Assembly (NCBI RefSeq): GCF_964355755.1
Contig: NC_092677.1
Location: 18,880,101-18,944,100 of the forward strand
Direction: 5' to 3'
DNA: 64,000 nucleotides
Origin: Antedon mediterranea
Taxonomy: Eukaryota; Echinodermata; Crinoidea; Comatulida; Antedonidae
The translations under genes were made by a program, and so were the position numbers. The first letter of the stretch is position 1. Each line of letters starts with the position of its first letter. Positions 1,215-61,561 of this stretch are shown here, one piece after another. Under the pieces are notes generated by a model. It saw only the letters and a program-made list of their open reading frames with translations. It did no database searches and was not told where the DNA came from.

Positions 1215-1391
1215 ATGAATTCACCAACACTTTCAGGCCCGGGCCCGAGTTTGTGTAGACCAGACTTCCATGCACAGCCACATGTTAAGGAATATGAATC
1301 TCTTTATGATTTTAATATGGTTCGAAATGATATTACACAACAACAATTAGACAGCAACTGTGCAAGAGTCCAACTAATAAAATCGGAATGA
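1215..1391 (+). other. 58-codon open frame conserved in both repeat arms
   Basis: An ATG-initiated frame starting MNSPTLSGPGPS and ending QLIKSE. The copy in the right arm (56949 down to 56773) is the same length, keeps the same stop, and differs at two residues (R/Q and Q/R). I recognise no domain. It may be a transposon-borne peptide, an exon fragment, or chance; two young copies would stay open anyway. Confidence 0.3.
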
Positions 1392-15013: not shown

Positions 15014-18000
15014 ATGGCAATCATTCTACGGCTTCAAGGACTACCATGGTCTGCCACTGCATCAGATATACGACAGTACTTTGTAGGTCTTAGCATCCCT
15101 GATGGCGGAGTACATATAGTTGGTGGGGAAGACGGTGATGTCTTTATTGCCTTTGCAAGTGATGAAGATGCTCGTCAAGCCATGAGGCGACAAAAGGAGC
15201 CACTAATGGGTGTTCGTGTCATGATTCTGCTCAGTAGCAAATCGGAAATGCAGGAGGTGATTGCAAAAAGCCGACAGGCTCAAGGAAGAGATCCATTCCA
15301 TAGTGACTCAAATGCATCCAAAGAAAGTTCTGCGACCATAGATACGTCTTCTGCAATGAAACTTGATGCTTCTGCACAATCTGGCTTTGATAGAAGAGAT
15401 ATAAATTTTGCTTCACCAATGTCACCAGATCCATCGCAGGGAGGACGACCAATTGCAGCTGATAATTTCCAAGATCGCAGTAGAATTCCTGATCAAGAAG
15501 CTCGAGATAGGAAAGTTGTCACCTCATACAATGATCCTTATAATCAATCAAGAACAATAGCTCCAGAAAATGGTTCATTTGGTCATACCGAAAACAGGCC
15601 AAGAGATCATGACCGAAGAACTCCTCAAACATCATGGCAACGTGATGCAAGAGAAGGCACTTCATCTAATTTTAATGATCCACACCAACCTTTTTGCCGT
15701 GATCCACCTCGTGGTGCTGACAGCCTTCTTGGTGATGTTCCAGGACATCAAGTTGTATCACAGTCTCTAAGAGAACCTCAGTCTGACCATAATTGGCCAA
15801 AGAATGATGTACGATCAAGACACCCATTTAAACCTGATAACAGTAGTGAAAATCCAATGGATGGACGATCATTCAGTCATCGGGAGACAGAAGACTTTGG
15901 ACAAAGGCATGGCAGACCAGCTCATCCACAAGATCCATTTGAAGGTGCTGGTAGAGATTTTATTCATGGGAAATATGCAGAAGAGCCAGGAAGAGACATT
16001 CGTGCCCCAGGAGATTTTGGTCATTCAAAAGGAGTACCACTTGCTGAAGAATCACGTTTACCACATGATGTTGCTTATAAACGTGAGCTTGAGGAATCAC
16101 TGTGTGTGTATCTGCAAGGTTTGCCATTTACTATAAAAGAACATGAAGTTGTTGATTTTTTTCGTGGTTTACGCATTGCTCGAAATGGTATCGGTATTGT
16201 TTTAGACCCACAGGGAAGACCAGTTGGAGATGGTTTTGTAAAATTTGTTTCTAAAAGAGATACTGTTGATGCATTAAAAAGACATAAAAACTACATTGGC
16301 AACTGCTTTGTGGAAGTAATACCATGTTCAGAAGGTGAATATCAGACAATGAAAAAGCCTTTGTCTGTTCAGTCTATAGATAGGCATGTACCTGATGGAC
16401 ATCATAGGAGAAGTGGAGAACCATTTCGAAAAGGTGATGGTCACGGTCTACCTTCTCTTCTTGGAATACCAACTCAAGAACCCTTCACTCCTCAAGATAG
16501 AGATCATCGAAGGGATATGCCCTTTGGTAGAAGAGATGGCCAAGATACTTTTCACCCAAGAAACAAAGGACCTACTGGTCCCAACTTTCACAGAGATCAG
16601 AAAGGGACAATGAGAGACGATTTCAACAGGGAAGGTATAATTGCAGAGGGTAGTAGAGACCACTTCAATCCAAATCGTAGAGGTAGTTTTGAATCTGGTA
16701 GCAGAGATGTGTTGACTCCTGGTGATAGAGAAGGTTTTAATCCAGGAAACAGAGAAGAATATTTTCAGGGAAACCGAGACAGATTTCATCCAGGCAGCAG
16801 AGAAGGATTTCATCAGGGCAACAGAGAAGGATTTAATCCAGGCAATGGGGAAGGATTTACGAAGAGAGACTTTAATTCAGGCAGAAGAGAAGAATTTAAT
16901 AGAGACAGAGACCATTTTACTTCCAACAGAGACACAAATTTGAGAGATTCTTTTGGCCCTCTTGATAGACGTCGTGATGAAAGAGGTCTTGGTGGCCAAC
17001 TTGATAGAGGTCTTGGCGGCCCTCTTGATAGAGGTCTTGGCGGCCCTCTTGATAACAGCCTTGGTATAACTCTCGGAGAATCTTCCCACAGAGATCCTAG
17101 TGGAAATTTTGATATAGGACCTGGTGGACCTCTCAATAGAGGACCTGGTGGACCTCCTAATAGAGGACCTGGTGGACCTTTCATTAGAGATGGGCCACTT
17201 CTAAGATTAGGAGGCGATGAAAGTTTAATGGATGCTGAAATGCCAGATGATATGTATGGAGCAAGTGGCCGGCCAACCATAAGTGGACCTTACTCTAAAG
17301 ATAGATTCAACCATGATGAATTTAATCGAAACCCAGGTGAATTTCATAATAGACATCAAGGACCATTTGAGAGAGAGCCAGGGCGAAATATTGGTCATCA
17401 AGCTAGAGCACATGATGGTAAATATGAATGGGAACGAGATGGACCAAGTTCACTGCAAAGAGAACGTGGACGGCCACCAGGAAATGTTGACAAGCAACAT
17501 AGACGACCAGATATGTCCTTTAATAGAGATAGACCACGGACAGAGAATCAATTTGAAAGAGAATTTAAAAGTGGTTATGATGCACAGTCAGACAGAGATA
17601 GAAGGCGCACTGACAGACAAAGTGAGAAACAAAGAGGCCGATCTGATGACCAAGTTTCAATGGATAAAAGTAGGCAAACACACAAAGACAAAAGTGAACC
17701 AGATGCTCAATCAACATCATTAGATTTAAGAATCAAATCATCAGAAAATTCGAGAGACCAAAGTAGAGAAAGAGATAGAAGTACTTCTGGCCGAGAATCT
17801 TCAAGAGAAAAACGGGGATCTGACAGGATTAGGTCAAAAGACATAAAAGATAAATCTAGTTCTGGTGATGAGAGAACAAAAGATAGAATAACAAACAGAG
17901 ATAAAAATATTGTAAATGGACCTTACACAACACGTAGTGATCATGATAGAGAACGAAAAAGGTCGCCATCCAAATCATCTCGTTCACAGCGTGATAGATC

Positions 18001-19616: not shown

Positions 19617-19754
19617 GAAGGTGACTCATTATTCTACCAACAACACCTTCAAACTGATATGCAGCTGTTTTATCTGTTTAAACGGAACTTGCAAGACTTT
19701 TCACAAGATCAATCAATACAGTTATATAATTACATAAAATTTCTTTTTGAACAA

Positions 19755-19948
19755 CCAAAAATAGTATAAGCGAACTTACAGTACGTTTCGAAACCTATCA
19801 GGTTTCATTCTCAACTGGCGTTTCATCGTCTAGCATTGTTAATCCCATGACGTCATGGGATTAACAATGCTAGACGATGAAACGCCAGTTGAGAATGAAA
19901 CCTGATAGGTTTCGAAACGTACTGTAAGTTCGCTTATACTATTTTTGG
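19755..19948. repeat. Perfect 194-bp palindrome in RBM12B 3' region
   Basis: Bases 19755-19851 are the exact reverse complement of 19852-19948, with no spacer. The centre is CCATGACGTCATGG and the outer ends are CCAAAAATAG and CTATTTTTGG. It starts 138 bases after the RBM12B stop codon and ends about 94 bases before the first AATAAA, so it probably lies in the mature 3' UTR, where it would fold into a 97-bp hairpin. It has no coding capacity. It is probably a MITE of the snap-back type, recent enough to have no mismatch. Confidence 0.92.
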
Positions 19949-20041
19949 AAGCTGAATGTGTAAGGATTTGTGTAGAAGTCTTCACTCTATTGTAGTCTTG
20001 ATGCAGTAACAAAATTTACCTTACTTCATTACATTCATTTT

Positions 20042-20047
20042 AATAAA
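20042..20047 (+). terminator. Candidate RBM12B poly(A) signal
   Basis: This is the first canonical AATAAA I see beyond the palindrome, about 425 bases after the RBM12B stop codon. A T-rich element follows at about 20066. Another AATAAA-like hexamer occurs near 20160, so the true site is uncertain. Confidence 0.45.
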
Positions 20048-23000
20048 GCACCTGTTTAATGTAAGGTTTTTTATTAAACAAATGTTAAACGTCTGTTTTT
20101 AATTTCAAACCATGAATTCCAACATCGTACATTTTTAATTCTTCTTACATAAATACTGTAAATAAATGTCTTTCATCTTCTTCAAGGTATTTGGTGATGA
20201 AGGTTTGTACAAATATGATACAAAATACACACTATACTGCATACTGTACTATACATCTTTCAGCATACAAGTCTAGTGTCGTCAATAATAAAATATTTTA
20301 CAAATCGTGATGCAAAACAGAAATATCTCCACAAATGTTCTCTCATCAAATCATAAAAGTAACGTTATTTTGTAAATTTCAACAAGTTCAAATTGATTGT
20401 CTTGAAATACATAGTTATTGAAATTTGTATTCAAGGATTCATAAACAAGATAAAAATAGTTACACGCAAGTAAATCCCAACAACAATACAATATTAAAAT
20501 ATGTAAAAACAGTAAAAGGTTAAAATAACAGGACTTGATCAAAATTAATTAAACAGTTCAGTTTATTTGTTCAAGTTTAATACATTCTGCTACTTTTTGT
20601 TACTTTTGCGTATTGGAAGAATATTTTTTTTAATGTACAAAATAATTTTTTTTATGTCATATTTGTTTGTATTATTTTACCTGATTACAAATGCCATTGT
20701 GCATTATCTTGTTTCTGATTATGCTATATAAGTGAATCAACCCCAATAATGCTGACACTATTATGTGTTCAGTATGATATTTGCCAAGCATTTATTTTTT
20801 ACTCATTGCGAAAAGAAGTGAGAGTAAAATTACATTATATTGTAAAATACATTGAAAAGAGGAATTACATTATAAGATAAAAAGAATTACCAACTGATCT
20901 TACAATGGATACTGTACATAACTATATTAATAAGACGTCTGCTTGAAAAGAATAGAGCATAATGTTTGATGAGTGTCATCTGTGATTAATTGATCAATTA
21001 TCAGTCATTGTGACTGTACTTTATTTTGGTGTGCTGCCTAAAAAATAATTAGGAAAAATAAAGTGTACAAAATGTTAATATTGCCGATATTTGTTAATGT
21101 ATAGTTAATTTTATTTTGTCAATTTTAGTTTTTCCAATGTATGACCTATGACCTATATATGATGGAAGTGTACCTTCACCATCTGTATGCGTGTAAAAGA
21201 TTACATTCAGTTAGTACGTGAATGACCGTAGTCACTATTATTTATTTTAATGTGCTACCTAAAAATAAAGTAAAATGTATATAATGTTAATATCTCGGAT
21301 ACATTGATTTTTATTGATTGTAGTTTTTCTTCCCATAATGTTGAATTTTAAGCACACATGCAACATAAAATGGATAAAGTGTATATTTAAAAATTCAAAA
21401 AAAGGAGTTTAGTTATTGGTTTAAAAAAAAGATCAGAAAGAAAATACATTATGTATTTGAAGAAATCTTTTATTTTAAGGACTGTAAAATAAGCAGCATA
21501 GCTTTTTAAACTTTATTCTAATATAATATTTGCATAGAACAGTACAATACACAAAGAAAATAAGCTAAAGAATGAAATTAGAAAAAGTTGTTTTTAAAAT
21601 ACTAAAGCATTATGAGTTTTCCTGCCAAATGCAGTATGTAGCCTACAAGAAAACGTTTACATTTTTTTTAAAGCAAAATGAGTGATTCTAAAAAGGTTTT
21701 TTGTGTTACGTTGTGTGGTCAATAAATGAACATTTACTAGTAGTATCTGCTTTGTATGTCTGTCCATCCTATAATAAGTATTGGCCATTCATGCATACTC
21801 CATTAGGCTGGGGGTGCGCACTAGGCCTGACATTTTAAAAGTACAAGTGCAATTTATGAAGACCTTCAGCTCTAATTTTCAAAATGTTCTTAGCTCAGCC
21901 CAAACCATAAAACTGGTCCAAGACACTTACGAATTTCGTTTCATATTCGTATAATAAATGCATTTTCCAGGGACCTAACAGCTCTATTTTTCAAATTTTC
22001 TTAGCTCTGTCCTGGAGACTTATAATATTGTTTCATATATCAATGTATAAGTGCAATTTCTGGGCATCTAGCACAAAGAAGGTAGTGTTAGTCCCGCGTT
22101 TACAATGTTTGCAGCACCCGCAGTGTTCATGTAACAAAACATATCTTGCTAAAATATTACTATGTTGTCAATTTATTTTAAAATGCCTTTGTCACATTTG
22201 AATTGGAGGATCAACATATTGCATTTTATAGGACACATGTAAGTAATACAGTATAATTATTAAACTGCAGTAAAGTTAAATACAGTACACAGAAGAAGAA
22301 CTACAAAGACCCATGACTTAGGTAAGCATATTAACCCAACTACAACTCTACCTATAAATAGGTTTCCACCGCCCCAGCACAAAATTCCTACTCACCTGCT
22401 TATAGTAAGTACCTTCAAAACATGCCACTGTCAAATTAACAAAAACATTTACATATAATTTTGATTTAATACTGTACAGAAGATGAAAATAAAACTAGTA
22501 TCTAAAAATAGTAACAACACTACAACAATTCTAGCATGCACACTTCACATTGTTAAACAAAGTAGGGCTGAAGCTAAAGCAAACTACTGTAGTCTCCAAC
22601 CAAAATGAAAATACTGTATATACAAATTTATACTCTACATTTTATTCTATGTTCAAATGATTAAACTTTTTTCAATAAATAGTGTGAAAAATAATTGGAA
22701 TACTATATTTTATGATTAAAAATGTTCTAAATACATTTTAAAAGGTTATTGGTCCAAGGTGATAAATTCAAAATGAATCCTGATTGATACAATTTAAAAG
22801 CATTTGTTTTACAACATATCAAGCAAACATTTACAGTGTACTGTACTGTAGGCAAGGTGAACTACTTTTCAATAAATACATTTCAACAAGGTGATAAGAT
22901 CCCTGCATTTACATTACAAATTTCAATAAAAAACCATTTTACAGCGTTACAATTTCATGGATCATTTGAAAGGTTAATTAATAATTAATTAAATATCTTA

Positions 23001-23266
23001 ATCCGTAAATAAAATGTTATGTAAAACAAATTTGAAATAAAATTAAATAAATTTTTTTACAATAAAATGTAAGGTTAGAGTTATTGGAATCCCTTTAATG
23101 TAATTCCTATAACAGTTGTTTATTATTATTATTAAACAAGACATGGAGACATTTTCATAAGCAATATCAAGGTTTCTTTTAAATCAAGGTATTTGTTATG
23201 AAGCAAATAATTAACATATTAGAATACTCCTAAATAATTGATCAGTTTTAATTTTTAATAATCTAT
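20048..23266. other. Convergent intergenic region RBM12B/CIBAR1
   Basis: AT-rich DNA between the 3' ends of two convergent genes. A diverged tandem duplication of about 110-130 bp is visible at 21000-21133 and 21225-21332; both copies share a GTGCT(G/A)CCTAAAAA block, an AATGTTAATAT block and an AGTTTTTC block. No further gene was recognised. Confidence 0.4.
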
Positions 23267-23630
23267 CTTGATGTATTGTCCCCCTAAAAAATAATTATTA
23301 AACATTTTTCTGTTGAATATGCCATTTTAATGTCACATAATAGTAATCGACTTGGACCAAAAATTAGATTGAAAAAAAAATTTAATTTAAATTTATCTGA
23401 AAAAACTGTAATTTAAAGCAAAAAATAGTCAAATTGGCTGCCATATCCAATGGATTTTTGATTGAATTTAACCATTTATTTTGTCATTTTATAAAGAGAA
23501 AACATTATTTTTTTAGGGTGTTTTTTTCTATGGAAGTGATTAACTTTATTAAAACTACAAAATAACCTATTCAAAATCTGATTTAATTAATCTTCATTTT
23601 TCATGTTTTTGGGGGACAATACATCTTTAA
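23267..23630. mobile_element. MITE, GTATTGTCCCCC family, copy 2
   Basis: Terminal inverted repeats GATGTATTGTCCCCC and GGGGGACAATACATC bound about 364 bp. The internal sequence closely matches the copy at 27802-28140 in the same orientation (shared CCAATGGATTTTTG and AACCATTTATTTTGTCATTT). It begins 84 bases past the CIBAR1 stop codon, inside its presumed 3' UTR. Confidence 0.8.
23545..23550 (-). terminator. Candidate CIBAR1 poly(A) signal within a MITE
   Basis: TTTATT on the plus strand is AATAAA on the minus strand. It is the first such hexamer downstream of the CIBAR1 stop (23715-23717), about 165 bases away, and it lies inside the MITE at 23267-23630. Other candidates follow further downstream. 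Confidence 0.35.
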
Positions 23631-23714
23631 ATTAAAATAGTTATATCTGACTGATACTTAATTTGTCACTAAATATAATCATCCCTAAGATCATCATGTA
23701 TTTTTGTCATTGCT

Positions 23715-26700
23715 CTAATACTCATCATCCTCATCATCGTAATCATCGTCTTCCTCATCTTCATCATCATCATCATCCTCCCAATTTTGTACGGTTGTCT
23801 TTTCCTGTTGACTTTTACTTGTTTTCTTCTTACCCATAGTAGAGGTCTTAGATTGGCCAGTGGAATTCAGAGATGCTTTTGAGCCAAGGTGAGAATTATT
23901 GAGACCATTGCGACTGCCACTCTCTGAACCTCCTAATGGTCGTAAACTGTTTCTGAATTCCTAAAATTAAAAAAATAATAATATATTAAATATACTCCCC
24001 ATCATTACTCAACACAGAAAGGATGGCAAGCTGGTCTAAACGCCTTCAAACAGAATGTAATACTACGGCCACCAGTCAGTTTCCTGTGTGAAAGAGGTTT
24101 TAATAGACACAAGAGTTTTTTTTTAGTTTGGAAGTGTGAAGTGAAGGACTAGTACATCTGGTGAAACACTTCTTCTCTCGTAAGATGGCACGTAATTATA
24201 ATCGTCCCAGCTATACAAGACAGACTGAAATTATTTTTATTTGTGTGATTATGATTTAGTAAATAAAGCTTCTAGCCATTGAGTTTGCTTACCTCTAGAT
24301 CATCATCATCACTTATTGAGTTAATACTCTGCCAAGCATTGGTGTACACTTCAAGACATTTTGAATGGAATAACATCTCCACTGTTAAAAACTCATGTAA
24401 AATTGTCTAAAATATAAGACAAAAATGAATAAATAAATCATACACCTTCATAATAATGTAGAGCTAGTTAGCAGGTTTGAAAAATATTTTAAATGAACAT
24501 GGATACATTATCTATCAACATGGTTTTCATTTTAGTTGGATTAATTTAAAAGACTCAATATTTTCAAAAAACACTCTTACATTCTAAAACAGCTTAAAAA
24601 TGTGTCTAGACTTTAAAGGGGGTTAGGAATAATGAATACATTGTATATATTTAAAGACCCATTCCTTACAATTTTTTACCTTTTGTAAAAACAATGAATA
24701 TATATTACTTTCAAAACATTAAACCAGGTCATTCCATTTTGCATGCCCATTTAGTTGGTAAACAGAAGAAATAAACTTTGTATAATAGCTACTTCAGTCA
24801 TTTCACATTTATTCAATTAATGAAAACTTAAACAATGTAAACAATATAAACAAATAAAGATTTCATTAATTTGGATCAGACTTAGAGGGCAAGGCCTGTC
24901 TCAGAAAGACCCAACAAAACATAAAACAAAATAAAAATGTATACAAATTAGGTAAACTAAAAGTGGCATAATAATAATAATAATACATTTATGAATGATA
25001 ATTTTCCAAATAATTAAACTTAATTTGATGTCTGAATATTTTTGCATTTTCACATTTTTTAGATTCTCTTTTAAGTTATTCCATAATTTAGGTCCATGAA
25101 CTGTAATAAAAAATTGGCTTTTGCTAAGTCTTACAAAAGGAACATACATAGGCCTAGCCTCACATTTCTACTATATTGTTTGTCTTTATTACTATTTTTT
25201 TTCTTTTTTGGTTTTAACTATTCGTACTTTCTTTTTAAATACCTTATTCATTTGTTTTATTGTTATTGATTGAGTGATTTTAATTTATCCTGTTATCCTG
25301 TTTTAATATTATTTATACTTTAGTATTTTGGCTTATACATAGTACTGTGCTTTAGATTTTTACTATCTACCCAATAATTTGTTATTATTTTTTAACTGTA
25401 TTCATATTTGTTTTGTTTACTACACTTAAACATTTTTTGAACATCTTTTTACAATAATTTCTGAACTGAAATTATTATTATAAAGTTTTGTTTTTTATTT
25501 GCATATCTTTCAAAAATCATTATATACCTTTATATCTTGCATCTTCTTCTTTTCAAATGAGTCCATCTGCTCCTCCAAGGCACGGTTTGACCTGGATGCA
25601 TCAACAGTTGCTTTTTGCAGTTTGGATTCGGCCTAAATAATAGGTCATGGAGTTTAGTTTAAATTATCTCAGACCTCTAAATGCTGACAATTGCAGGAGT
25701 CATGCTCCTGTGAAAGCTCACCGATATTCAATGTATACATTTATCACTTAGACTCCACTATTAATATTGAATTTGTTAGGAAAAAATGTATTTCCCCAAC
25801 CCAATTCCCCAATCCATTTCTTACAGATACCTAAGGTTGTTTTTAATAGCACTCCATCTAGTTTTTTAATTTTTTTAAATACTTTTAGCACCCCATGCTT
25901 TCACAATTTCTCCCGATATTCCACATTTTTGCAGGTTGTGACTTCTGTTATATACTCATTTAAAATACATTTTGTGCTAGTCCAAGAACATCCAGTTTTG
26001 GTATAGCTGAGTGTAATCTACTTTACATGAAAACAAATATCAGTAATAGTATTTGAAAAAAATGTTAATGTAAAAATGTCCCTTTTATTGATCTAAAAAC
26101 CCCACCCAAAAAAATAGATAGTATGTAACCATTAATGAATGTCAATATTCTATTCATTTGCATACAGTGTAGTTCAGCGAAAGTTGCGTTAAAATTTAAA
26201 ATGTACTTTGTTTTAATCTCGCCTCAAGAATTCCACATTATAGGAAACCATAAAAAGTTTAACTTACATCACAACTGTTCATTACTGTTTTTTACAGTAC
26301 ATACTTACAATACCTGTACTAGATATACTGTACTTGAGTTTTTAAAAATACATTTACCTGTGACTGAATAAGTGATGTTAAGGTCAACATGCAGAAAATG
26401 AGCAAGGCTGTACACATTACTATCTATTACTATCACTATCACCCAATATTCTACTACTAACCTGTAAATTTGTATATCTTTAAAATTTAATTTGTCTTGC
26501 ACTAACACCTTCAGATGATGGAGGAAGATCTGGTTGCTTCCTCCACATTGAGAAAAAGATACACATTTGAATATGTTGGCCCTTACGATGCACTATTCAC
26601 AAAGCCTGGGCCATATAAGGGAATAAGGTACGCATTGGAATGTGTAGGCCTTTACGATGCACTATTTACAAAGCCTGGGCCATATAAGAAGGGAATAAGG

Positions 26701-29352
26701 TACGCATTGGAATGTGTAGGCCTTTACGATGCACTATTCACAAAGCCTGGGCCATATAAGAAGGGAAGGTACGCATTGGAATGTGTAGGCCTTTACGATG
26801 CACTATTCACAAAGCCTGGGCAATATATGAAGGGAATAAGGTATGCATTGGAATGTGTAGGCCTTTACGATGCACTATTTACAAAGCCTGGGCCATATAT
26901 GAAGGGATTGAGGTATGCATTGGAATGTGTTGGCCCTTACGATGCACTATTCACAAAGCCTGAGCCATATATGAAGGGATTAAGGTATGCATTGGGATGT
27001 GTTGGCCCTTACGATGCACTATTCACAAAGCGTGGGCCCTGTATGAAGGGATTAAGGTATGCATTGGAATGTGTTGGCCTTTACGATGCACTATTCACAA
27101 AGCGTGGGGCCATATAAGAAGGGAATAAGGTACGCATTGGAATGTGTAGGCCTTTACGATGCACTATTCACAAAGCGTGGGGCCATATAAGAAGGGAATA
27201 AGGTACGCATTGGAATGTGTTGGCCCTTACGATGCACTATTTACAAAGCCTGGGGCCATATAAGAAGGGAATAAGGTACGCATTGGAATGTGTTGGCCCT
27301 TATGATGCACTATTCACAAAGCCTGGGGCCATATAAGAAGGGATTAAGGTATGCATTGGGATGTGTTGGCCCTTACGATGCACTATTCACAAAGCGTGGG
27401 CCATATATGAAGGGAATAAGGTATGCATTGGGATGTGTTGGCCCTTATGAAGCACTATTCACAAAGCGTGGGCCATATATGAAGGGAATAAGGTATGCAT
27501 TGGGATGTGTTGGCCCTTACGATGCACTATTGACAAAGCGTGGGCCCTGTATGAAGGGAATAAGGTATGCATTGGAATGTGTTGGCCTTTACGATGCACT
27601 ATTCACAAAGCGTGGGGCCATATAATAAGGGAATAAGGTACGCATTGGAATGTGTTGGCCCTTAAGCCATCCTGCAGCCTTTAAAAAATGTTTTTTAAAA
27701 AATTGGGTAAAGTAAAAATGATCAAAATATTAGAAAAAAATTGTATAAATAATGGTTATATGGAGCATGGCATTAAAACGGATCCAGTTTTAAAAAAACA
27801 CTTAAAGATGTATTGTCCCCCTGAAAAATAATTTTGTTTGTTGAATATGCCATTTTGTTGTCACATAATAGTTATTGACATCTACCAAAAATTGGATCAA
27901 AAAAAAATTTATTTACCTGAAAAAAATGGAATTTAAACCAAAAAGTTGTCAAATTGGCTCTACCAGCCAATGGATTTTTGGTTGAATTTAACCATTTATT
28001 TTGTCATTTTACAAGTAAAAACATTATTTTTTTCAGTTTTTTTTTTTCCTACGGAAGTGATTCACTTTATTAAAACTACAAAATAACCTCATTTAATTAA
28101 TCTTCATTTTTCATGTTTTTGGGGGACAATACATCTTTAAAAATGGTGCATGATTATAAGGATACAATTTGTTGCCTGTCACCTGGTTTCTTCTGTCGCA
28201 CTTTCTCTAGTTTCTTCTGTTCATTCAGTTCTTTATCCCGTGCAGAAAAGGATGTTTTAAGATCATCCTATCAAAATAAATATTATATTAATAAATATTA
28301 TACAGTCAATATTTAATTTTATTTATTTAATATTATCTACTCAAACTAGTACCTGTCATAAAACTAAAATAAAGAGAATATTTTATCTAGTTAACATAGT
28401 GGGCACCGCATATGGAGTACAAGCTACATTGTGTTCATAATATGCACAGTGAGCTGTAGACTGTATACAGTTGTTCTCTTTACTCATGAATCTAATTTGC
28501 CATATAGTAAGTTAATATGTATATTTTGCAATATTCAACAGTTTTTAAAAATTTAACTCGCGTTTAAAATTATAAATATGCCAGGAGTTATTAGATTGGC
28601 AGCATAAACATTCAATTTAATTTAAAAGACATGTATTTTCCTCCATAGCAATACAATACAAAATACAGAAATGATAAGGAACCAAGGTGAAAATAGAGCA
28701 GTCAATTTTAACATTAATTTGTTTTATAACACACCTACTTTTATTCAATTTACAAGGCCGGGAAGCTAGGCCATTAAAAAGGCAGTGATCCTACTTGGAA
28801 AGGTAAAGTTGTAGAAAAGTTTGGTTCATGAGGGAAAATCAGAAATGTTACTACCTTTGCATGTTTGCAGGCAGTTCCATAAAGGCTTAATGGTTGAACC
28901 ACTTTGTATTCAAGTCGTTCAACCATAGCATGCCTGTAATCTTGGACAGCAGACAATTGTTCAGCGAAGCCTGTCATACCAGCTTTTGTCGTCTGCATTT
29001 CGTTTTCTGCATACTGCAAAATTGTTTTGGATATGTCGTCACCAGCATCACGTAGCTTAGCAACCTTCCGTGAATATGTTGACATGTTTTGACAGAGAGT
29101 TGAGAAGTTTTTTTCTACATTGATGATGCGTTGCTGTGCAAATTTTGACTGATTCTCTCTGCAATTGGAGTTCAGTTTTATTTAGAATCATCAAAAATAT
29201 ATAAATAAAAACAATTACTTTACTTGTGTCTTAGACAATCATGGAGGAAATATATATTTCCTTCATGTGAGACAATCAACAACAGAATAACAATTTCAAA
29301 TACAAAATACTTATTTTTACCTTGCTCTGAGATCTGATCCTCTTTGTGTCAT
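23715..29352 (-). CDS. CIBAR1: CIBAR1/FAM92A, CBY1-interacting BAR-domain protein
   Basis: Six coding exons were assembled on the minus strand: 29352-29321, 29158-28855, 28267-28166, 25632-25528, 24406-24293 and 23960-23715. They total 903 nt including the stop, 300 aa, and all phases close. The protein starts MTQRGSDLRARENQ. Diagnostic stretches are QDYRHAMVERLEYKVVQPL, DDLKTSFSARDKEL, TVDASRSNRALEEQ and EFLTVEMLFHSKCLEVY, aligned in order with vertebrate FAM92A. Residues 10-215 form the coiled-coil BAR domain. The tail is Lys/Ser-rich, then a run of Asp/Glu ending DDEDDEY. In the family the protein binds Chibby and curves membranes at the basal body, supporting ciliogenesis. The third exon uses a weak donor (ATT|GTATCC). 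Convergent with RBM12B. Confidence 0.93.
24870..25160 (-). pseudogene. LINE 3' end inside a CIBAR1 intron
   Basis: The minus strand encodes VPFVRLSKSQFFITVHGPKL followed by WNNLKENLKN, the conserved C-terminal block of many LINE ORF2 proteins (GPKLWN-L). A TTATTATTATTATT run follows, as a simple-repeat 3' tail. Only the 3' end remains, as after 5'-truncated retrotransposition. It is in the same orientation as the host gene. Confidence 0.6.
26572..27663 (+). repeat. 72-bp minisatellite, 15 copies, in a CIBAR1 intron
   Basis: Fifteen tandem units of about 72 bp share GATGCACTATTCACAAAGC, a G-rich GGGCCATATAAGAAGGGA-type block, and GCATTGGAATGTGT. Most units are 72 bp and keep an open plus-strand frame with a 24-residue repeat (YDALFTKPGP, then YALECVG). 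A few lose 3 bases or gain one G (GGGG in place of GGG), which breaks the frame. The open frames at 26515-27117 and 27290-27625 are by-products of this repeat and antisense to the host gene. Variants TAGGCC and TTGGCC cluster in neighbouring units. Confidence 0.9.
27802..28140. mobile_element. MITE, GTATTGTCCCCC family, copy 1
   Basis: Bounded by AAAGATGTATTGTCCCCC and GGGGGACAATACATCTTT. It lies in the CIBAR1 intron and ends only 25 bases from the donor side of the 28166-28267 exon. It is the sister of the copy at 23267-23630. There is no coding capacity. Confidence 0.8.
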
Positions 29353-30530
29353 CTTGAGTAAATAGGCTATAGGTCTAGGCCTATGTATTTTTGATTGTTT
29401 TCTAAATTTAAAAAAGGTAACCAAATCTTTTAATTTATATTTGAAATACTGCAGTCGACGGTGGCGACCTATAGGGCTAGGCCTACTACTACTAGCCCTA
29501 GGCTACTACTCTATCTACACAGTATAGGCCTAGGCCTACGTCGTTTGTCAGAAATTATATTTTTACTAATGTGTTGATTCATTTTTTGAATTGCAAGATA
29601 AAACTAATCAATGGCTAGGCCTAGGCCACACGAATCTGGCATCTTTTACCATGATTGTTACGCGCAGCTCAGGTCGTATTTACAGAAGATGCTAACTACT
29701 AGGCTAGGCCTAACTAAAAGCCTACGACTATTTACTACTATTTTAGGCCTAATAAGGCGAGCTATAGTTAGAGGATAGATGATAGATAGGCCTAGTGCCT
29801 AAACTAATAGGCATACAATAGTATACTGTATCAACCCGTTATAACTTTACTTTAATAGACATCTTTATACACGAAAACTTACCAAATTACGGTAAAGAAT
29901 GTTACCGAAACTGTTGCTTTTTGTATTTGTTTGGGGTTTTTTTTCGTCTTTGCGCCCTCTACAGATTTAGAAAAGTTGGATTGGTACGGTACGTTCGATC
30001 CCCTAGCTCCATCCATGTTATTGGGGTTTGGTTAAAGATAATTTCTTGTCGTATTCGATTGGGACTTTTACCCTTCAGTATAGTTTTTCCGTTAATTACT
30101 CATTTAACGGATCGGAGTATTTTGAGCGTTGAGATTTTTCTTAACGAAAAAACCTGCGTTGTTAACGTTTTCTATTCGAATGATTATTTATTGAGTAACT
30201 TCCATCTGGAATCAGTAGACATGTTTAAATGTGTACTATCCCCCAAATAAAACCTTGAAGGTCATTTCTAAATACTTAATGAAGAATGACTCTTAGCTAT
30301 AATAAGCTTTTGTAAATAAATAATGATTTCGCTTATAGAAGGAAACAAATAAACCGTTTTTGTTGTTGGTAAATATAGATTTTTTTTTTTGAAAATTGTT
30401 ATTGAAATTATAACCTAATAATTTTTTTTTCAGGGGGACAACATATTTTATAAGTGGATAAAAATATTGTCTGACAAATATAAATCCTCTAAATGTGGCG
30501 TTAGTTGTGTGATTAATTAATAGTATGAAT
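29353..30530 (-). promoter_or_regulatory. CIBAR1 5' region, first intron and promoter
   Basis: The stretch upstream of the CIBAR1 start codon is unusually dense in TAGGCCTA-type palindromes (29370-29830). On the minus strand a good donor (TTTG|GTAAGT) lies at 29883/29882, so a non-coding first exon may run upstream of it (about 29883-30000). The plus-strand 109-codon frame at 29921-30250 has no similarity and falls within this presumed promoter. A pair of inverted (T/C)CCCC blocks at about 30240 and 30435 resembles a degraded member of the GTCCCCC MITE family. Confidence 0.4.
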
Positions 30531-30539
30531 AATCGGCGG

Positions 30540-30610
30540 TATAAATACGGAGAAAGATTGATTTTCGGCGTACATTAGCGTGTAGGGAGACCAGCTTTGG
30601 AACAATTCAG
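30540..30610 (+). promoter_or_regulatory. Candidate TATA promoter and short first exon
   Basis: TATAAATA at 30540-30547 is followed about 60 bases later by ACAATTCAG|GTATGAGT, a good splice donor at 30610. This is the layout of a core promoter with a short non-coding first exon, oriented toward ESRP, whose coding starts at 40376. No matching transcript can be shown from sequence; a chance combination is possible. Confidence 0.3.
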
Positions 30611-33509
30611 GTATGAGTTATAAATAAAGTACAAACGAATTTAGCTGATCGATACTGTCATTATTTTGTACTTGTCGCGTCGGAAGCTAGACCGACATTA
30701 TACCATATATGGCATTTAGTTACCCGTTTTTCTCTAAAGCTGGTCGCAACGCAAACATAGGCGTAACGCGTAATAACGAGTTAGTTTACCAATACAAACA
30801 ACAGTTCGGATGATCCATCGCGTTGTGATTGGTTAAATTACCTGCGATGCACTTACGTCCCCATGTGAGAAACTCTCATGCGCAATACCGTAGGCCTACT
30901 GTTTATTAAGAAAGCTGTTTGTTTTGCCCGGCGTGTATTCCGTGAGATAATCGGGAGAGGCTATTCAATGATCAACAGACAAATGGGATTTTGAAAAATG
31001 TACCGTTACGTTAAATCAATTGTTTAGGGTACTGTGATTACATATAGGATTTTGCATCACTAATAATCCATGATTATAACTTCAGAATAGCACTGAGGTT
31101 AACCTATTACCGTACTGATATCTTTTTGAAAGAGGACCGATTTATTAGTCAACTCAAGGTAATCCTAACGGGTTCTGATTAAAAACCACGTCCTTTCAAT
31201 ATGTATGCATTTTTGTATTCATGGGATGGTTTAGGCTTAGCTTCGTTTTCTTTTCATCAGATAACTTAATGACATAGGGTAGGTGAACTAAAAATAATCG
31301 AATTGGAACGGCCTCCTACGCAAGTTTTTAAGACCGGTGGATAGAACTTATTTTGTGAATTTGGTCTAGTTTTGTAGGTGGATTAGGGACAAGTCAAGGT
31401 CAGGGAGTGGAGTTAAAAATCTTACTTTTGTATAATTTGCCTTTAATTGTTCAAAGAGAAGTTCAAAAAGCCATGGAAAACATGTTTATTCCAATAAACC
31501 AATAAACACGCGATCAATTTGAGGATAATCTTTTTATTTTATATAAGTGTAATTCAATATCAAATATTGTGATATATTAAAAACTTTTTACTGTTAACAT
31601 ATTTTTTCAAGATTAGTATACATGTGCGAGTCGATTATACACAAAATGATGTTTATGCACAATAAAAGAACATGTCTACCAAATTAATCATAATTGTTTC
31701 TTTTTAATTCTAAAATAGTAGCTTTTATTGGGAATGTTTGAAATGAACTTAAATGAATCGGTTTATTTATAATTAGCTTTTCTTTTTAAATGATCTGACA
31801 TAACAAAATTCTATGATATAGGGCCTAAGGTCGGGGGAAACTTTCTTGCGCTGGAAAAAAAACATCTTGTTTCGAATAAGTCGATCTTATTTTTAAACTT
31901 AATTTAAGCGGCAACCGTTAGGCATACGTCAGTTTGTTTTCATTTAGGCCTATCATAGGTTTTATCCATTCACAAAGGGTAAAGATACCAAATAGAACAG
32001 TTTTGTAACTGTACAAGATGTGCCGCCTGATTTAACCTCTTGTTCTATAAGATAGGAGGGCCTGAGTTCCCAAAAGGTCGAAAACATTCAAACGAAGATT
32101 TGTTTTCTCTAATTGTTGATGCGTAACGAAAGGTATGGGAAGTTCTATGTTCCTTTACGCTTTAACTAATACCAATTAGTTTAATTTAGTAAGATAAACT
32201 TGTTATGAATCATATCATATCAACAAAATAACGAATGTGGAATGAACCGTCTTCTGATGTCTTGTAAAATGTCTGTAAACAACTTTACTGTTTTGTTGTC
32301 TTCCACCTGAACCAATTTGAGATATTTTCTTAGCGCGGATGCTGTGGCATCAATTTCATCAGCTCAAGATGGTGCAGGCATACCAATCGGCTAGATTGCT
32401 TATTGTTTTTGGAAGAAACTTAGGCTAACATTCATAGTTGAATTCACAAATTATAGGCTTAGATATTTTGTTTTGATTGCTAATAATACTAGTAAACTCG
32501 TAATTCAATAGTATTTGTAGGCTTTTTTTGTAGCAGTATAAACGTGGCAAAATCCCGGTAATTAAATTGGCTAATTACGTTAATGAACGTCATTATGGCG
32601 CTGATCATTGCATTTGTACTTATAATATATAGTTTACTTTAGTTTTGTATTGTTGAATTCATCACGGATCGTACATGACCTGGGTGTACTACTCAAACAA
32701 CACCATTAACTTCACAATTTCATCTTTATTTTATTTATTAAAAAATCCAATGCTGCGGTTAAATACATTAATTGACTATAATAGTTAATACACAAACACG
32801 CGAAGATGAGTTATAGATAGAATTAATGGCTATGTTCCAGTTGATTGAATTTAACAATAAAGACTTATCTTACTTTAGACAAACCTTTAGAAAATCTGGC
32901 GCCTCACTGTCTGCTATCAGGTAAACAATTTCTATACTTTTCGTTCTATTTTGACTATAGTTATTTTCTTCTTGTGAAATTACTTACAATAGTTTCTGGC
33001 TTATTGTGAGTAAATCTCAGTTCCTTTAAAAATCGCATTCAATGAACCAGAACTAGATGTTTTAAAAAGCCAAGCCTAAAAGGTATTCTCCATTGAATTA
33101 TTTTAAAGGATTTGTGGAGGTAAAAAGAGACAGCAAAAATCATTGATTTGTGAAGGTTAACTAATCTATACGAAATCAAGATAGGGCCTACATCTAAACA
33201 AAACCTTTTGAGATATGATGCGTATTACACATACGCAGCTCAAAACGTTATCAGGGAGAGTGAAATGATTATCATTTCTCTCTCTCCTAAAGTTGTCTTT
33301 CAATAAAAGTGAATGAAATGAAATTCATTTCGATTAGTGTGGTACCGCCCAATGGTTTAGAAGTCAGGTTAACGGCTTGAGTATAGTCGAGGCCCGTGAA
33401 GAATGTAAATGTATCAGCTTATCTTTCAAAACATTTTCCAACTTGATTCCTTGCCATATAAAACTATAATTCCGATTATTACCATTATTATATGCATACA
33501 AGTTATGAT
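30611..33509. other. Intergenic or 5' intronic, no gene seen
   Basis: AT-rich sequence with no recognised coding exon. If the promoter at 30540 belongs to ESRP, this is its first intron. Confidence 0.35.
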
Positions 33510-33660
33510 ACATGATAGTGCAGATTGATTGATTGATTCTTTTATTTTTCACAAACATTCATAAAAATATAAATAAAAGATTAAGTACAATAAAGTGTGA
33601 AAAACAGGATAACCACAAGCAAGCAAAGCTTTTAATCTGTGGCACCCTAACTTAAAATAT
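33510..33660 (-). repeat. LINE 3' end with AATC tail
   Basis: On the minus strand it reads GGGTGCCACAGATTAAAAGC, then a short T-rich stretch ending GTTTGTGAAAAATAAAAGA, then AATCAATCAATCAATC. This is a 3' UTR and tetranucleotide tail in the manner of CR1/L2-type LINEs. No coding sequence remains. Confidence 0.45.
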
Positions 33661-33723
33661 AAATTTACAAATATATTACAAAAATGTTTTCATGTAGTAA
33701 ATAAATGAAGGAAAATACAACGT

Positions 33724-33725
<2 letters not shown>

Positions 33726-33762
<37 letters not shown>
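33726..33762. repeat. TA dinucleotide microsatellite
   Basis: An uninterrupted TA run of about 18 units. Confidence 0.9.
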
Positions 33763-33767
<5 letters not shown>

Positions 33768-35400
33768 CAGTCTCAGAATATATACGAAAATGTAATTAAT
33801 TAAGTTAAAGTTAGACATATTTTACAAATGTAGTTTTCGCAAAGATATATTGTTTTTTTATAACTATTAATGCATTTATTTAGTAATAGTTTTTTAAATA
33901 TTGATATGGTTCCAGAAATTGAACGAAGTGTTACGTCATCGATCGTATGCAAGTAGCATAAAATACTGTATACAATATCTTAGCAACCATAGGCCCACAT
34001 AAGTCTTGATCATAAAGTCATTCTTTTCGACACAACATCATCAGCAATATAAATAGCATAGGTATTGTCATCATCTATATCATCATAATTATTATAATTA
34101 TAATCAGGTCAGGTTATTTGTCATGTCATCTTTAATATTAATTTAATCAATCCAAGAAGTTATAAATACCCAGTTATAGAGGCATATTATTCAATTGATA
34201 TGAAGAAGCAACTTAATGATTCTATAATGTTTTGTATTATTATTTCTGAGGAAACTACGTCAATATATTCTACTTTATGTATGAACAACTACGCTTGAGA
34301 ACGAAACGATAATGAATAAAGTACAGTATCCATGATAATCATACACGATGGAAACACTGTTAAATACAAACAATTCCAGATGACACAGACCATGATGAAT
34401 AACAATAGCGTTAGCGATGATTTTATTTATCATACTCAATGTTACTTGGAGGCCTACCTAGGTTTGTGGGAAGAATACTATCATGCTACGTTTTTCTGTT
34501 TACTATTTTTCTTTTGGATACCCGTGTGGATGTTTGCCACAGTTTCAAAAGTGTAACTTCCAAATACAAGTAGTGACGTCACGCTACGAATTGTTGATGA
34601 GGACTGTGACATCTGTCGTTTGTCATTATACGGGTATGCATTGCTGATGTGCGACAGATCTGGCTAATAAGAATTAAATTTAAGCAGTTAGGCCTAGACC
34701 TATACATGTATAAAGGCTAGCCCGAAAGAAACAACAAATGCAAAAAAAAATTACAAAGATCTCATTTTGAAAATCAATTTGATGATTTGGCTATTTCTGG
34801 TAGAATTCTATATTATATATTTTTTTGTATCAAGGAAGAGTGATATTATAACTTTAACTGCAATTTTAAAAATGACTACTTTAAATGATATTAAATTAAA
34901 TGTTAGTATATGTTTTATCTCTTCCCGTTAAATCGGATATAGAGCCGGCCCTAAATGGGGGAAATGAAAACGAACATGTACTAAAAAAGGCTTGGTACAA
35001 AGTTACTATTCATTTTCATTTATGATTTCCCAAATCTTACCAAGAATAGTTAGGTCCTAATTTAAGGATATATATTGCTAGACATTGATGACGATAAGAC
35101 GGAGTAACAGCAATCGTGCTGTGGAAACAGTTTGGCCAGGATCGTGAGGCATGACGGGATCTCATCACGGTTGGCACAGCTGCCCGTACGCGTATCAAGA
35201 AAAAGGTCGAAGTGCAGTAGTGTATTTCAGACGAGGGTAGTCTTTATTGCCGAAGCTTTTATTCGAGGCAAAGGTCATCATTTGGAAGAAGGAGGGTCAA
35301 TAGCATACGTTTATAATATGTACAGTACTTCATTTCGTCATATTTCCTCGATATTTGATCAAACACATAATTTATAAATAATAACAATTGATAGAAAAGA
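33763..35400. other. Intergenic or intronic, no gene seen
   Basis: AT-rich sequence. Short open frames at 34332-34556 and 35132-35377 show no recognisable domain and no family resemblance. Confidence 0.35.
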
Positions 35401-35880
35401 TTCAAGATTCAAGATTCAAGAAATTTTATTTGTCCATAAAATGGAAATTCACTTTGCTTGGTAGATTAAAACAACAGTATTGCAACAATTTAAAAACGTG
35501 CAGTATTATAACAGATTAAAAATACAAGATAAAAAGTTAAAAATACTGTTAAAAATGTAAAACTATTAAAAATTGCATTAACGTCTTACATTAGAATTAA
35601 AAATATGAATGCTATTTACAACGAAGGATTTTCTAGTTCTACAATGATTTGCTCTTGGAGGTCGTAGCCTAATGCCTGATCTATTTAAGTTATAACAGTA
35701 ATGTAACGGATGAGTGGGGTCTTTCATAATATTGTTAACTTTTTTTAGAATACTCTTTTCATAGATAAATGAACAAGGCGTTAGATCAGCTTTAATAATA
35801 CGTTGTGCAATTTTACGTGGTCTCTCAATATTTTTCTTATCATTTTCAGTAAAGTTACCGCAATTCATGATTATGTTATT
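35401..35880 (-). pseudogene. 5'-truncated LINE, ORF2 C-terminus and tail
   Basis: The minus-strand frame (35868-35578) starts MNCGNFTENDKKNIERPRKI and runs through DPTHPLHYCYNLNRSGIRLR to RTRKSFVVNSIHIFN, the conserved end of many LINE ORF2 proteins (HPL...LPSGRR...R...SF.P). A short 3' UTR leads to three copies of a TTGAATC heptamer at 35401-35421, a simple-repeat tail. The copy is truncated upstream of about 35880, leaving no catalytic domain. Confidence 0.65.
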
Positions 35881-38800
35881 TTGAAATGTATTTATTATAT
35901 TATTTGAAATTCACACGTTAGATATTGGTCTACAATGCTAATCATATTCAAATCATAATCATAAATGTAACTATACAAAATTTCTTTAATGAAAATAAAC
36001 TATCATAATAAAAGTAATATTGTAAGTCTAGAAAACAATAATTTTCTTCATAAAAGCTGATTTATGATCAACAATGTGTAGGCCTACAATCCTGTGTTTG
36101 TTAATTCCATGTGTTATAGTCAGCCTTCCGGCCCTATGAATAGAATGAATATCTTTACCACACTGAATTCACTTTTAACCGCGATTACTTCCGACAATCC
36201 AAAGGATGTTCCTTCCATAAATTCTTCTAAACATCTTAAAATTAAGTCGGAATCAAGCAGATATCAAAATAAGCTTAAAGTATTTTATACATGAATAGGT
36301 ACTTGACCCTCTGTTTACAATGCATGCAGTATGTTAAGTAGTTCAGGTAAAACTTGTGTAATTTCGTTTTTCCATATGTTCCAACATTTAAGACATTCAC
36401 TGGTGTAAACAATGTGTTGTTTTTCATATTCTACCATGTGTATTGAAGATTCAATGTCATGTACCAACATGATACACCGCTTACATTCTATCATGGTGCA
36501 TTTCTCATCATCTTTATGTTCAAATCCAAACAGATTTTAAATAATTTTATATTACCGTAGGCCTATATATACAGCATTATAACTCGTCTATAAAAACAGT
36601 ATGGTAATTATTTTTGGAGGAACAATATCTCATCGTCGCATAAATCAAGGAAAAATAAAATCGATAGTGAGATTCGAACCGGAAACATGCTAAATATAAG
36701 TACGTGAACTATGACACATTTCGGCTTTCTTAATTCATGGTACCTCCATGGTTGATGTTAGTCAACTTTTATCCATTTTCCTTGTTAGGTTAGGATTACC
36801 GTAGGCCTCATCCATGAAGTCTGTAAGTGTAACCCTAAATTGGCTAATCACATAAGTCAGTGAAACGAATTCACATTATTTTAGTTGGTTAAATCATGGA
36901 GCTATAGCTCCATGGTTAAATGGTAAACCGTATCCAAACCCATGCACAAAAATGAAGTAAACCATCACCAATAATGTACGGTAAGTTTGTAGGCCTAACA
37001 CTCTGAGAAATAACAAACCTCAACTTTCTATTAAATTACAATAATAGGAAGAATTTCGACTTATTAATACAATTGTTTACAAATAGATTACCGTATTGGG
37101 CCTAATTTAAATAGATTAAAATCGTTGTTAAAATAAATGTGTGAAATGTATTACTGATCTACAGTATTTCAGAATGGATGAGAATTGCCAGAGATTAAAT
37201 ATTGACTTTAATAATTCAAAGTTTTGGATCAAGCCTATGAATGGCACGCTAATATTTGCATTATAGTATAAATTTGTAATGTATAACAAGGCGATTATTA
37301 AATGCAAACATTAGCATAAAAAATTAAACCATCTCTCTATAATGGTTCACACAATATGGATAGTAAATACTCAAAAGAAACCAGCAACCGTGATTATACT
37401 GACATATTCAAAATGATGTATTATTAAATTCTACAAATTCTGAATTTTAGTTTAATTATTGAATACTGAGAGTGTTGTTATTTTTTATTTATTGACGACC
37501 AGGTATCTAGACGTAATTATTGCGAACAATGCAATATTTTAAGAGTTATTTTCTAAGGTAAATGTGAAACGATTTTGAGGTGGGAGTGATCCAACTAGAT
37601 TCTTGTTACATTCCTTTTCATGTTTGGTTAAAAAGCTATTAACGATGATTCGCAAATCTAACCTGGATGACAACAACAAAAGGTGAGATTCGGTTCAGCA
37701 ATCGCCCCTTGCACATTTCATGAAAAGCATCTGACATTAGTGTGAACAAAACGTGGATTAGTCTGATGAATGGACAACTGAACAGGCAGACCGCTTTCTT
37801 TCCCAGATTATCAGTGAAGCAGTGCACTATTGTCCAAAACCATTCAACAACAACACAAAACACAAAAGACCCATAAAACGAAATATTTTGATACCACTGA
37901 ACTCAAGGAATTTCTATCGTAGCGAAAATAACTGATTACTATTAGGCCTGTGCTTTTGTAAAATTAAAAATGGCGTATTATTATGATTCATCATCACTAC
38001 AAATAGTAAATCTATATTTTATGACGCAGAAAAATCTTGCCTAGTATTTCTAATGAATTAGAAAGAAAACAGCTTGCTGAACTGATACAAACAAAAAACA
38101 TAATTTATTATTATGTCATTTGTGATGAAACATGAATAATTGTGTTAATAGTTTTATCTATCTCTATCGGTACTAGGCCCCCAAATAATAACGATTATTA
38201 TTATTGGTTTGTAACTATTTTATAGTAGGCCTATATGATTGTTCAGGCATAGAGAAACCGATAGCCTAAACTACCCGGTGACAAATTAATTAATTGTTGA
38301 AATCTGTGAGATAAAAGCGGCCCCGACCGAGATTCGAACTCAAAATCTGTTTGAAATGCAGAAAATGGTTTAAATTTAAATTCGATTGAAATTTTTTATT
38401 ATTATAACTGTATTAATAATTGCTTTATTATTAATAATCTACATATTTAGATATTTGGGTTTTTTTTCTTGTTTTTTTTATCTTAATCTTACTGGATTGT
38501 AAGACCTACAATATATATCTTCTTCACAATAATCTCTTTTACAGTCTAATACAATTAATTACTTGTATTAGTTCTAAAGGAACCAATATATACCAACGAT
38601 TTCCTCATAACTTTCCATTGTATATACAGTATTTCATTTCTATCAGTTTAAAACAAGCAAGGACAATTATTTCTGAATGAACCAAGAATTGACCAATTCC
38701 CTGAAATTGACGACGGAATAACAATGTGTTACAAACTTGTTTAATTGATGCATGCTATTAACGCTTAGTTTTTAATTAATTAATCAATCAATTAGAATAA

Positions 38801-40375
38801 AGGTTTGATATCTATACAATCGCAATTACCTTTGTTTGTCAAATTAATTAAAGATACATTTATTTTTTATGATATTTCTGTTTTGATGTATTTTACTAGA
38901 TATCTAAAATCAATTCTTAATATTAAAATATGCAAATTATAAAATCAGTGTTTGATTCGCATTCGATTTATTACCTGATCGTTAAATTTATATCATAAAT
39001 TTAAATTATAATCCTATGAGCCGCTTTTACCTATAGGCCTAATACTGTAACTGTTCATTGATATTTGCATACGTTATCAATTTCTTTGTCATATTTAATG
39101 AGAAACAACCATATGGTGATTCCCTTTCATTATAATGATTCTTAAATAAACATAGAAAATGGTGGCTGTTGTTGTATCAGTAATTGACCAGTTTTTAGAG
39201 CCCAATCGCAACAAAAAACCTAAATAAATGTGGTTTAGGTGTCGGTCGTAACTGACTGGGTTTAACTCGTACCTTGTGCTGCTGAAATTGCCAATCTTCC
39301 GGTAAACATTAAAAATATACTGTTGGCCAGAACCCATGGGCCTACTATTTTAAGTCATGATACTGCATTATTAATTATTAGTATTAAATGCACCCATGGA
39401 GATTTAATAAGTATAGACTAACCAAACCAATAATAGTGCTGAATGATGTTAGAATAAAGAATTTCTTATATCTAAAAATATGTTAAACTTGTTGAATTAT
39501 GTGTGTGTATGAACACATGCATTACGTTACATTGTACCTCAATTTGATATACTGTATAAATAATACAGTATACCGTGGGGACACACTGTAGCATGTTTCT
39601 GTATATGACGTGGGTGTAAATTGTGAACCATGACAATACCTTCATTTCCCATCACCAAAGTAACACCATATTATTAAATTATAAAACAATCTTTTTATTT
39701 GAAATCATACTGTGTTATGCCATCACCATTATTTATTGCCATCCACCACCATAACCATGAATATACCAGTACTTTACCGTTAAATTAAACTTGAGTTTTT
39801 CCTTCCTATTTCAATAGGCCCTACTCGGTATATCGCAACAGCCTTCATAATTGAACAAAAATCTCCATTCACCAAAATCAAAAATAACTTAATAAGTAAG
39901 TTAATATTGAATTTGGTGTAAAAAAGATATAAATTAGGAGAGAATTTTATGCCAGAAAGTTGCCTGTTGGTTGTCGTTAAGCTCCATTGGCTGTACCAAC
40001 GCCCTTCGTTTCACATACGTGTGATTTCTAATAGACGATATGATAATAATGTCGAACAATATGTTTTGCTTCGCTTGTTCACACTCTATTCAGGACTTAA
40101 GTCTCACCTATTGTTATGCATACCACACTCATTGCGCACGCCCCGCTCTATTCAAACCAATGCCACGTAAAGACCCCTTCCACCAATAACTGCATTACTA
40201 ATACAGATAATACACACGCACGACAGTCAGGGTAATATTTGTTCAGAAGTTGTGGATTTGAGAAGAGCAACAGTGTTTAAGTGCTGTGAGCGCACACTAT
40301 AGATAGACGGGGTCCCTTTACTATAGGGTAGTATTTTTAGTTTTGTGGTGTTTCTTGTTTTACTTTTTTCTCACA
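35881..40375. other. ESRP upstream region, no other gene seen
   Basis: AT-rich DNA with scattered TAGGCCTA palindromes. Isolated B-box-like GATTCGAAC strings near 36672 and 38331 may be remnants of tRNA-derived SINEs. The 73-codon frame at 39949-40170 shows no convincing similarity. A possible acceptor (GTATTTTTAG) at 40340 precedes the ESRP start codon by 35 bases and would fit a spliced 5' leader. Confidence 0.35.
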
Positions 40376-55356: not shown

Positions 55357-55607
55357 TTACGAACTTTTCATATAGTTCATGACCATCTCCGTAGCAAGAT
55401 GGATGTTGCGTGCAAAAATCAGACGGATCAGATTTCGCTCGGCGGCGTGCATCGCGGAAAAACTTTTTGTGTTTGCCTTTTTGGGCTTTTTTTCGCGCCG
55501 CGGCTCTAGCCAGCTATGTCCCAGGAGGACACATTCATTAATAAGCTGTTTCATAGCGGTAGCTTTAGTATCTAAGGCTGACAGTTTTGTGAATTTGGAA
55601 ACTCGAC
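55357..55607 (-). other. Open frame across the inner edge of the right arm
   Basis: About 83 open codons on the minus strand run from a stop near 55608 to one at 55357. The frame includes MKQLINECVLLGHSWLEPRR, then a Lys-rich stretch and HAAERNLIRLIFARNIHLA. The first part lies in the repeat arm and is also open in the left arm, where the frame diverges after PRRE and stops. It is composed like a real protein, but I recognise no family. It could be an exon caught by the duplication or part of a transposon. Confidence 0.25.
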
Positions 55608-56772: not shown

Positions 56773-56949
56773 TCATTCCGATTTTATTAGTTGGACTCTT
56801 GCACAGTTGCTGTCTAATCGTTGTTGTGTAATATCATTTTGAACCATATTAAAATCATAAAGAGATTCATATTCCTTAACATGTGGCTGTGCATGGAAGT
56901 CTGGTCGACACAAACTTGGCCCCGGGCCTGAAAGTGTTGGTGAATTCAT
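56773..56949 (-). other. 58-codon open frame, right-arm copy
   Basis: Counterpart of the frame at 1215-1391 with two residue differences and the same start and stop. No domain was recognised. Confidence 0.3.
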
Positions 56950-61508: not shown

Positions 61509-61561
61509 TTTCAGTATTTATTATTATGCAAACATGTTGAGGAAAGGTAGCATAATTGACG

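Follow-up and report, generated by a model that had tools for sequence, protein, structure and literature searches.

Three genes that lie close together in the crinoid Antedon mediterranea, an RBM12/RBM12B-family gene, CIBAR and ESRP, raise the question of whether their linkage is older than the vertebrate genome duplications. The window, that is, the whole stretch of 64,000 nucleotides analysed, corresponds to C8:18880101-18944100 and contained full-length coding models for all three genes. These models were built by hand from splice sites, and the codon scan and the family searches were concordant. The features of the window were:

15014..19616, + strand, RBM12/RBM12B-family gene; coding exon 15014-19135 and predicted last exon 19596-19616; five RRM-like regions
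19617..23714, no strand, intergenic stretch of 4.1 kb, with RBM12 and CIBAR tail to tail on either side
23715..29352, - strand, CIBAR (FAM92) gene; six exons, running from 29352 to 23715; relative of CIBAR1/CIBAR2
29353..40375, no strand, head-to-head interval between CIBAR and ESRP, 11 kb from start codon to start codon
40376..52133, + strand, ESRP gene; thirteen exons; N-terminal nuclease-like domain and three RRMs

The interval 15014-52133 opens with the start codon of RBM12 and closes with the stop codon of ESRP. No further convincing gene was found inside it by a crude codon-usage scan, the CIBAR-ESRP interval included. In the gene models, RBM12 and CIBAR pointed towards each other and were followed by ESRP in forward orientation. 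The stop codons of RBM12 and CIBAR were separated by 4.1 kb, and the start codons of CIBAR and ESRP by 11.0 kb. An earlier note on this DNA had placed the three genes within 37 kb, with an RBM12B-type gene and CIBAR tail to tail, and the full coding models agreed with it on both points. AATAAA and ATTAAA words were numerous on both strands of 19617..23714, so transcript ends were not readable from this stretch.

Identity and copy number of the three genes

The RBM12-like protein comprised 1380 aa in the model that includes the predicted 21-nt last exon (19596-19616). The Pfam family RRM_1 matched three stretches (E=1.5e-33). Among solved structures, hnRNP H and RBM12 were the closest relatives, and the structure matches covered five RRM-like regions in total. 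These were related to hnRNP F (residues 3-86), to hnRNP H and RBM12 (approximately 360-445) and, in the C-terminal part, to the fly-type chain AT27789p (1005-1082), hnRNP H (1126-1206) and RBM12 (1297-1370). At window positions 16727-17189, the coding exon carried 24-bp in-frame repeats encoding a repeated 8-residue motif. They overlapped residues 538-642, the part of the protein that matched low-complexity DNA elsewhere in the genome.

A second RBM12-type gene was not found in a genome search with the coding exon (E <= 1e-5; 34 of 59 candidates scored). One of the 20 matches was the gene itself, and the other 19 were weak and confined to the low-complexity middle (query 538-642). This search was insensitive to distant paralogues, and one could be missed because not even the ESRP or hnRNP H motifs were recovered among the matches. 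In human, we take RBM12 to be located on 20q and RBM12B on 8q. Most simply, with no second copy found, the window gene would be the single relative of both. The name RBM12B, used for it in the earlier note, was not confirmed as stated and is too narrow, because one gene was found here versus two in human.

The CIBAR protein had 300 aa and contained the FAM92 BAR domain (Pfam FAM92). Residues 8-219 matched the human CIBAR1 chain 8ceg with E=8.5e-60. CIBAR was present as a single copy, as the Pfam FAM92 model gave three matches in the genome, all of them exons of this gene. A CIBAR relative was not present among 15 pattern matches in prokaryote genomes, which might have represented contaminating animal contigs. 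One CIBAR intron held a minisatellite (window 26552-27664) of 72-bp units in 15.5 copies, whose opposite strand was open over 203 codons. The ESRP protein had 724 aa. Its residues 2-306 matched the ESRP1 chain 7wrn (E=5.7e-86), and RRM matches were obtained with the ESRP1 structures 7vki at 309-425 and 2rvj at 468-564. The layout was that of the ESRP family, with the nuclease-like domain at the N-terminus and the ESRP RRMs after it. ESRP was also single copy, its largest exon finding one genomic place (E <= 1e-4).

Repeats, mobile elements and miR-2012-like hairpins

The palindrome TAGGCCTA occurred 37 times in the window versus 0.44 expected occurrences, for example within 29376-29794. In 294 kb (C8:18790101-19084100) it occurred 126 times versus 2.6 expected and ranked first in frequency among the 256 palindromic octamers. 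A common flanking sequence was not found in these 294 kb, and the literature matches listed for the palindrome held no evidently related title. At 59511-61508, a minisatellite made of 57 copies of a 35-bp unit, with 95% likeness between them, was located immediately before a non-LTR-type retroelement at 61556-64000. In this element, an upstream ORF preceded an endonuclease, after which a reverse transcriptase began; the match to the latter was below the cut-off. By eye, reverse-transcriptase-like sequence continued beyond the window end, to the right of ESRP. Codon scans for other genes in the window yielded nothing but the retroelement at 61.5-64 kb, and the minus-strand stretch 55337-55513 matched no Pfam family at E values up to 0.1. 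A short peptide-like stretch recurred at window positions 1224-1292 (+) and 56872-56940 (-) and at C8:18997465-18997560; it is probably a dispersed repeat.

A 22-nt mature miR-2012 sequence, searched with up to two mismatches, identified two precursor-like sites at C7:27617213-27617941. They were 0.7 kb apart with one mismatch each, and the reversed control gave 0 matches. Both sites folded into long hairpins. MIR-2012 is called 'supposedly xenambulacrarian-specific' in PMC11521371, where it is reported as not confirmed in Xenoturbella. The hairpins fit an invertebrate deuterostome and make an ambulacrarian host, echinoderm or hemichordate, likely. Vertebrate contamination, or a window of vertebrate origin, was rejected on the single copies that the searches recovered where vertebrates have two and on the presence of these two hairpins in the genome.

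Comparison with human 8q22.1

A human deletion table gives the order RUNX1T1, TRIQK, FAM92A1, RBM12B, TMEM67, PDP1, CDH17, GEM, RAD54B, FSBP, KIAA1429 for 8q21.3-q22.1, in which FAM92A1 stands for CIBAR1 and KIAA1429 for VIRMA (PMC6570965). The RBM12-CIBAR adjacency is common to both lineages: the genes are adjacent here and are consecutive entries in that human table (PMC6570965), as the earlier note had stated for CIBAR1 and RBM12B. TMEM67, the human neighbour of RBM12B on the other side, was located 8.6 Mb away on C8. We take human FAM92A1 and RBM12B to be convergent at 8q22.1, which would match the orientation here, and ESRP1 to lie just beyond VIRMA on 8q. The common micro-order is limited to the RBM12-CIBAR pair. 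ESRP is shared at the chromosome scale and not as gene order; its position immediately next to CIBAR is not shared with human. With TMEM67 8.6 Mb distant, the rearrangement went beyond the local scale, and the suggestion that ESRP had changed sides by local rearrangement was not supported as stated; it was a guess, as two arrangements cannot tell which one is derived. A paper describing the RBM12-CIBAR pair was not found by a search whose reach ended short of supplements and most subscription journals. The string 'synten' was absent from the main text of the Esrp evolution paper PMC5703972.

Distribution of linked families over the genome

C8 comprised 28.58 of 354.43 Mb, or 8.06% of the assembly of 18 contigs. 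Six families expected from human 8q, 16q and 20q were picked by their human positions. CBFA2T and TMEM67 were run first; VIR_N, AC39, Dpy19 and two controls were fixed beforehand, and Ndr joined the set once the flanks were known. The best genome matches were:

NHR2/CBFA2T, C8:9.93 Mb
Meckelin/TMEM67, C8:10.26 Mb
VIR_N/VIRMA, C8:9.55 Mb
AC39/ATP6V0D, C8:18.962-18.968 Mb, 18 kb beyond the window end
Ndr/NDRG, C8:14.09 Mb; a second, weaker match on C4
Dpy19/DPY19, C1 and C7, not C8; the exception

Five of the six families had their best place on C8, and the chance of at least five of six at 8.06% each is 1.9e-5. One human DPY19 member presumably adjoins ESRP1. The location of DPY19 off C8 counts against an old linkage, weakly, because the family has several members. 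The control SART-1 mapped to C10 and the control Sec39 gave no match; the control is thin because just one of the two families gave a place. That the RBM12-CIBAR-ESRP linkage predates the vertebrate genome duplications, as first proposed for this locus, is very likely in view of the five families on C8, in a comparison that covers this genome and human.

The flanks were covered by codon-use scans over 90 kb on the left side and 140 kb on the right. Within 100 kb, ESRP was followed on the right by ATP6V0D, two copies of AHCY, and G-alpha-s; the AHCY copies and G-alpha-s were located 29-94 kb beyond the window end, on C8. The tandem AHCY copies (C8:18973805-18981477 and C8:19004534-19008135) were approximately 31 kb apart. 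They were supported by Pfam matches on three exons of the first copy and one of the second, with more exons recognised by eye. An LTR-type element between them was recognisable by eye through ORFs resembling polymerase and integrase, and C8:19.020-19.025 Mb also resembled a mobile element by eye. Two exons of G-alpha-s were identified by test; Pfam gave nothing for these short exons. A putative further G-alpha-s exon near 19.08 Mb was recognised by eye and had no Pfam match. The left flank contained TUBGCP2 and a kelch/BTB gene with a BACK domain, its kelch motif being below the cut-off.

We take human AHCY and GNAS to be located on 20q, ATP6V0D1 and ATP6V0D2 on 16q and 8q, respectively, and TUBGCP2 on 10q. 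Relatives of 8q, 16q and 20q genes were therewith assembled within approximately 145 kb, between the start of RBM12 and the G-alpha-s exons that were tested. Such a mixture is as expected if those arms were copied from a single old chromosome. TUBGCP2 is the exception and counts against this reading, as does the kelch/BTB gene, which is unassigned.

The 8q22.1 families formed two clusters. VIRMA, CBFA2T and TMEM67 fell within 0.716 Mb (C8:9.55-10.26). The second cluster, at C8:18.89-18.97, held RBM12, CIBAR, ESRP and ATP6V0D in 75 kb, with AHCY and G-alpha-s coming next. For the first cluster, the chance that three points placed uniformly on C8 fall within 0.716 Mb is 0.0018, a value for a cluster that was spotted post hoc. 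Tentatively, and with the odds against it, human 8q22.1 might keep a sub-chromosome neighbourhood of the deuterostome ancestor that is present here in two pieces 8.6 Mb apart. One break of a single ancestral block, guessed at 1-2 Mb, would yield both clusters. If true, the region resisted the shuffling of its chromosome, and 8q22.1 would be a place to seek the reason.

Origin of the linkage

The window is best explained as an intact piece of a linkage group older than the vertebrate genome duplications, with the convergent RBM12-CIBAR pair kept in both lineages (probability approximately 0.87). From the gene models, the copy numbers within search reach, the orientation and the co-location on C8, a duplication history and an ancestral order may be reconstructed. 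The pre-duplication chromosome would have carried RBM12, CIBAR and ESRP together with CBFA2T, TMEM67, VIRMA, ATP6V0D and NDRG, and probably AHCY and G-alpha-s. The crinoid would still carry this group on one chromosome. In vertebrates, the chromosome would have been copied, and unequal loss would have spread the copies over human 8q, 16q and 20q. Most of the gene order within the chromosome would have been shuffled, but neither lineage would have separated the convergent genes RBM12 and CIBAR. Plain inheritance is the most likely cause of their persistence as a pair, given that the two have no evident common promoter or pathway.

Hemichordate chromosomes are described as derived from 24 deuterostome linkage groups (PMC11175523), and amphioxus as having kept linkage with scrambled gene order (PMC7269912). 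Kept pairs are not the rule, because two hemichordate genomes are presented in a legend of PMC11175523 as lacking apparent micro-order conservation. The old linkage is well supported and agrees with the expectation from this literature; the convergent RBM12-CIBAR pair is the special part. This same background gives weight to the idea that RBM12 and CIBAR became neighbours on two separate occasions by chance in a shuffled common chromosome, the ancestral state being chromosome-scale linkage alone. Old linkage groups retain little of their internal order (PMC7269912), apparent micro-order conservation is lacking in the two hemichordates (PMC11175523), and TMEM67, VIRMA and CBFA2T are 8.6-9.4 Mb off here. 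Under random order, however, the chance for a particular gene to occupy either neighbouring position is approximately 0.0023 before orientation is considered. This value was calculated from nine named genes in 294 kb, or approximately 875 on C8, and is weakened by a small factor through the post-hoc choice of the pair. The pair agrees in adjacency and presumably in orientation as well. A twofold chance origin is therefore regarded as improbable.

Persistence by selection would mean that breaks are disfavoured by a regulatory block or by a 3' region common to the two convergent genes. RBM12 and CIBAR converge in this genome and presumably also in human, and a common 3' region may be under selection. 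In PMC8851819, micro-order conservation across animals is also linked with regulatory blocks or co-expression. The gaps of 4.1 kb and 11.0 kb were nevertheless judged not unusual at this gene density, and a block held by selection appears unlikely overall. The left-flank genes TUBGCP2 and kelch/BTB, which are not from the expected human regions, would suit a chimeric assembly joining unrelated loci. Yet the window and the surrounding 244 kb (window included) contained zero N, and genes of the expected group continued rightward within 100 kb and far leftward at 9.5-14.1 Mb. A misjoin bringing three genes of one human region into 37 kb is itself unlikely, and a chimera is given hardly any weight. 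An inherited piece of an old linkage group remains the preferred reading of the window.

For the base of the deuterostomes, the locus provides a gene-order character that can be checked, a convergent RBM12-CIBAR pair beside ESRP and ATP6V0D, with vertebrate copies in 8q, 16q and 20q. Characters of this kind are useful for placing chromosome fusions and for assigning RBM12/RBM12B, CIBAR1/2 and ESRP1/2 to the genome doublings as duplicates. The existing picture of chromosome evolution is unaltered; the case is of an ordinary kind, linkage-group conservation with one conserved neighbour pair.

Relation to known systems

The closest known systems are the bilaterian, deuterostome and chordate ancestral linkage groups as described in PMC7269912 and PMC11175523. 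As in those groups, invertebrate linkage is kept in vertebrates, order is shuffled and copies are spread by the vertebrate duplications; relative to these descriptions there is no difference in kind. The animal gene pairs and blocks with conserved micro-order (PMC8851819) are similar in that the unrelated neighbours RBM12 and CIBAR keep their adjacency between an invertebrate deuterostome and human. Orientation would likewise be the same for RBM12-CIBAR. The vertebrate CNGB paralogon is a further close system; human CNGB1 and CNGB3 are presumably located on 16q and 8q, respectively. The account of the CNGB paralogon in PMC9803222 places CNGB1 and CNGB3 in one duplicated-region group, B or linkage group 10; ESRP, ATP6V0D, NDRG and E2F are not mentioned in its main text. 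The C8 group may be the group to which the CNGB paralogon belongs.
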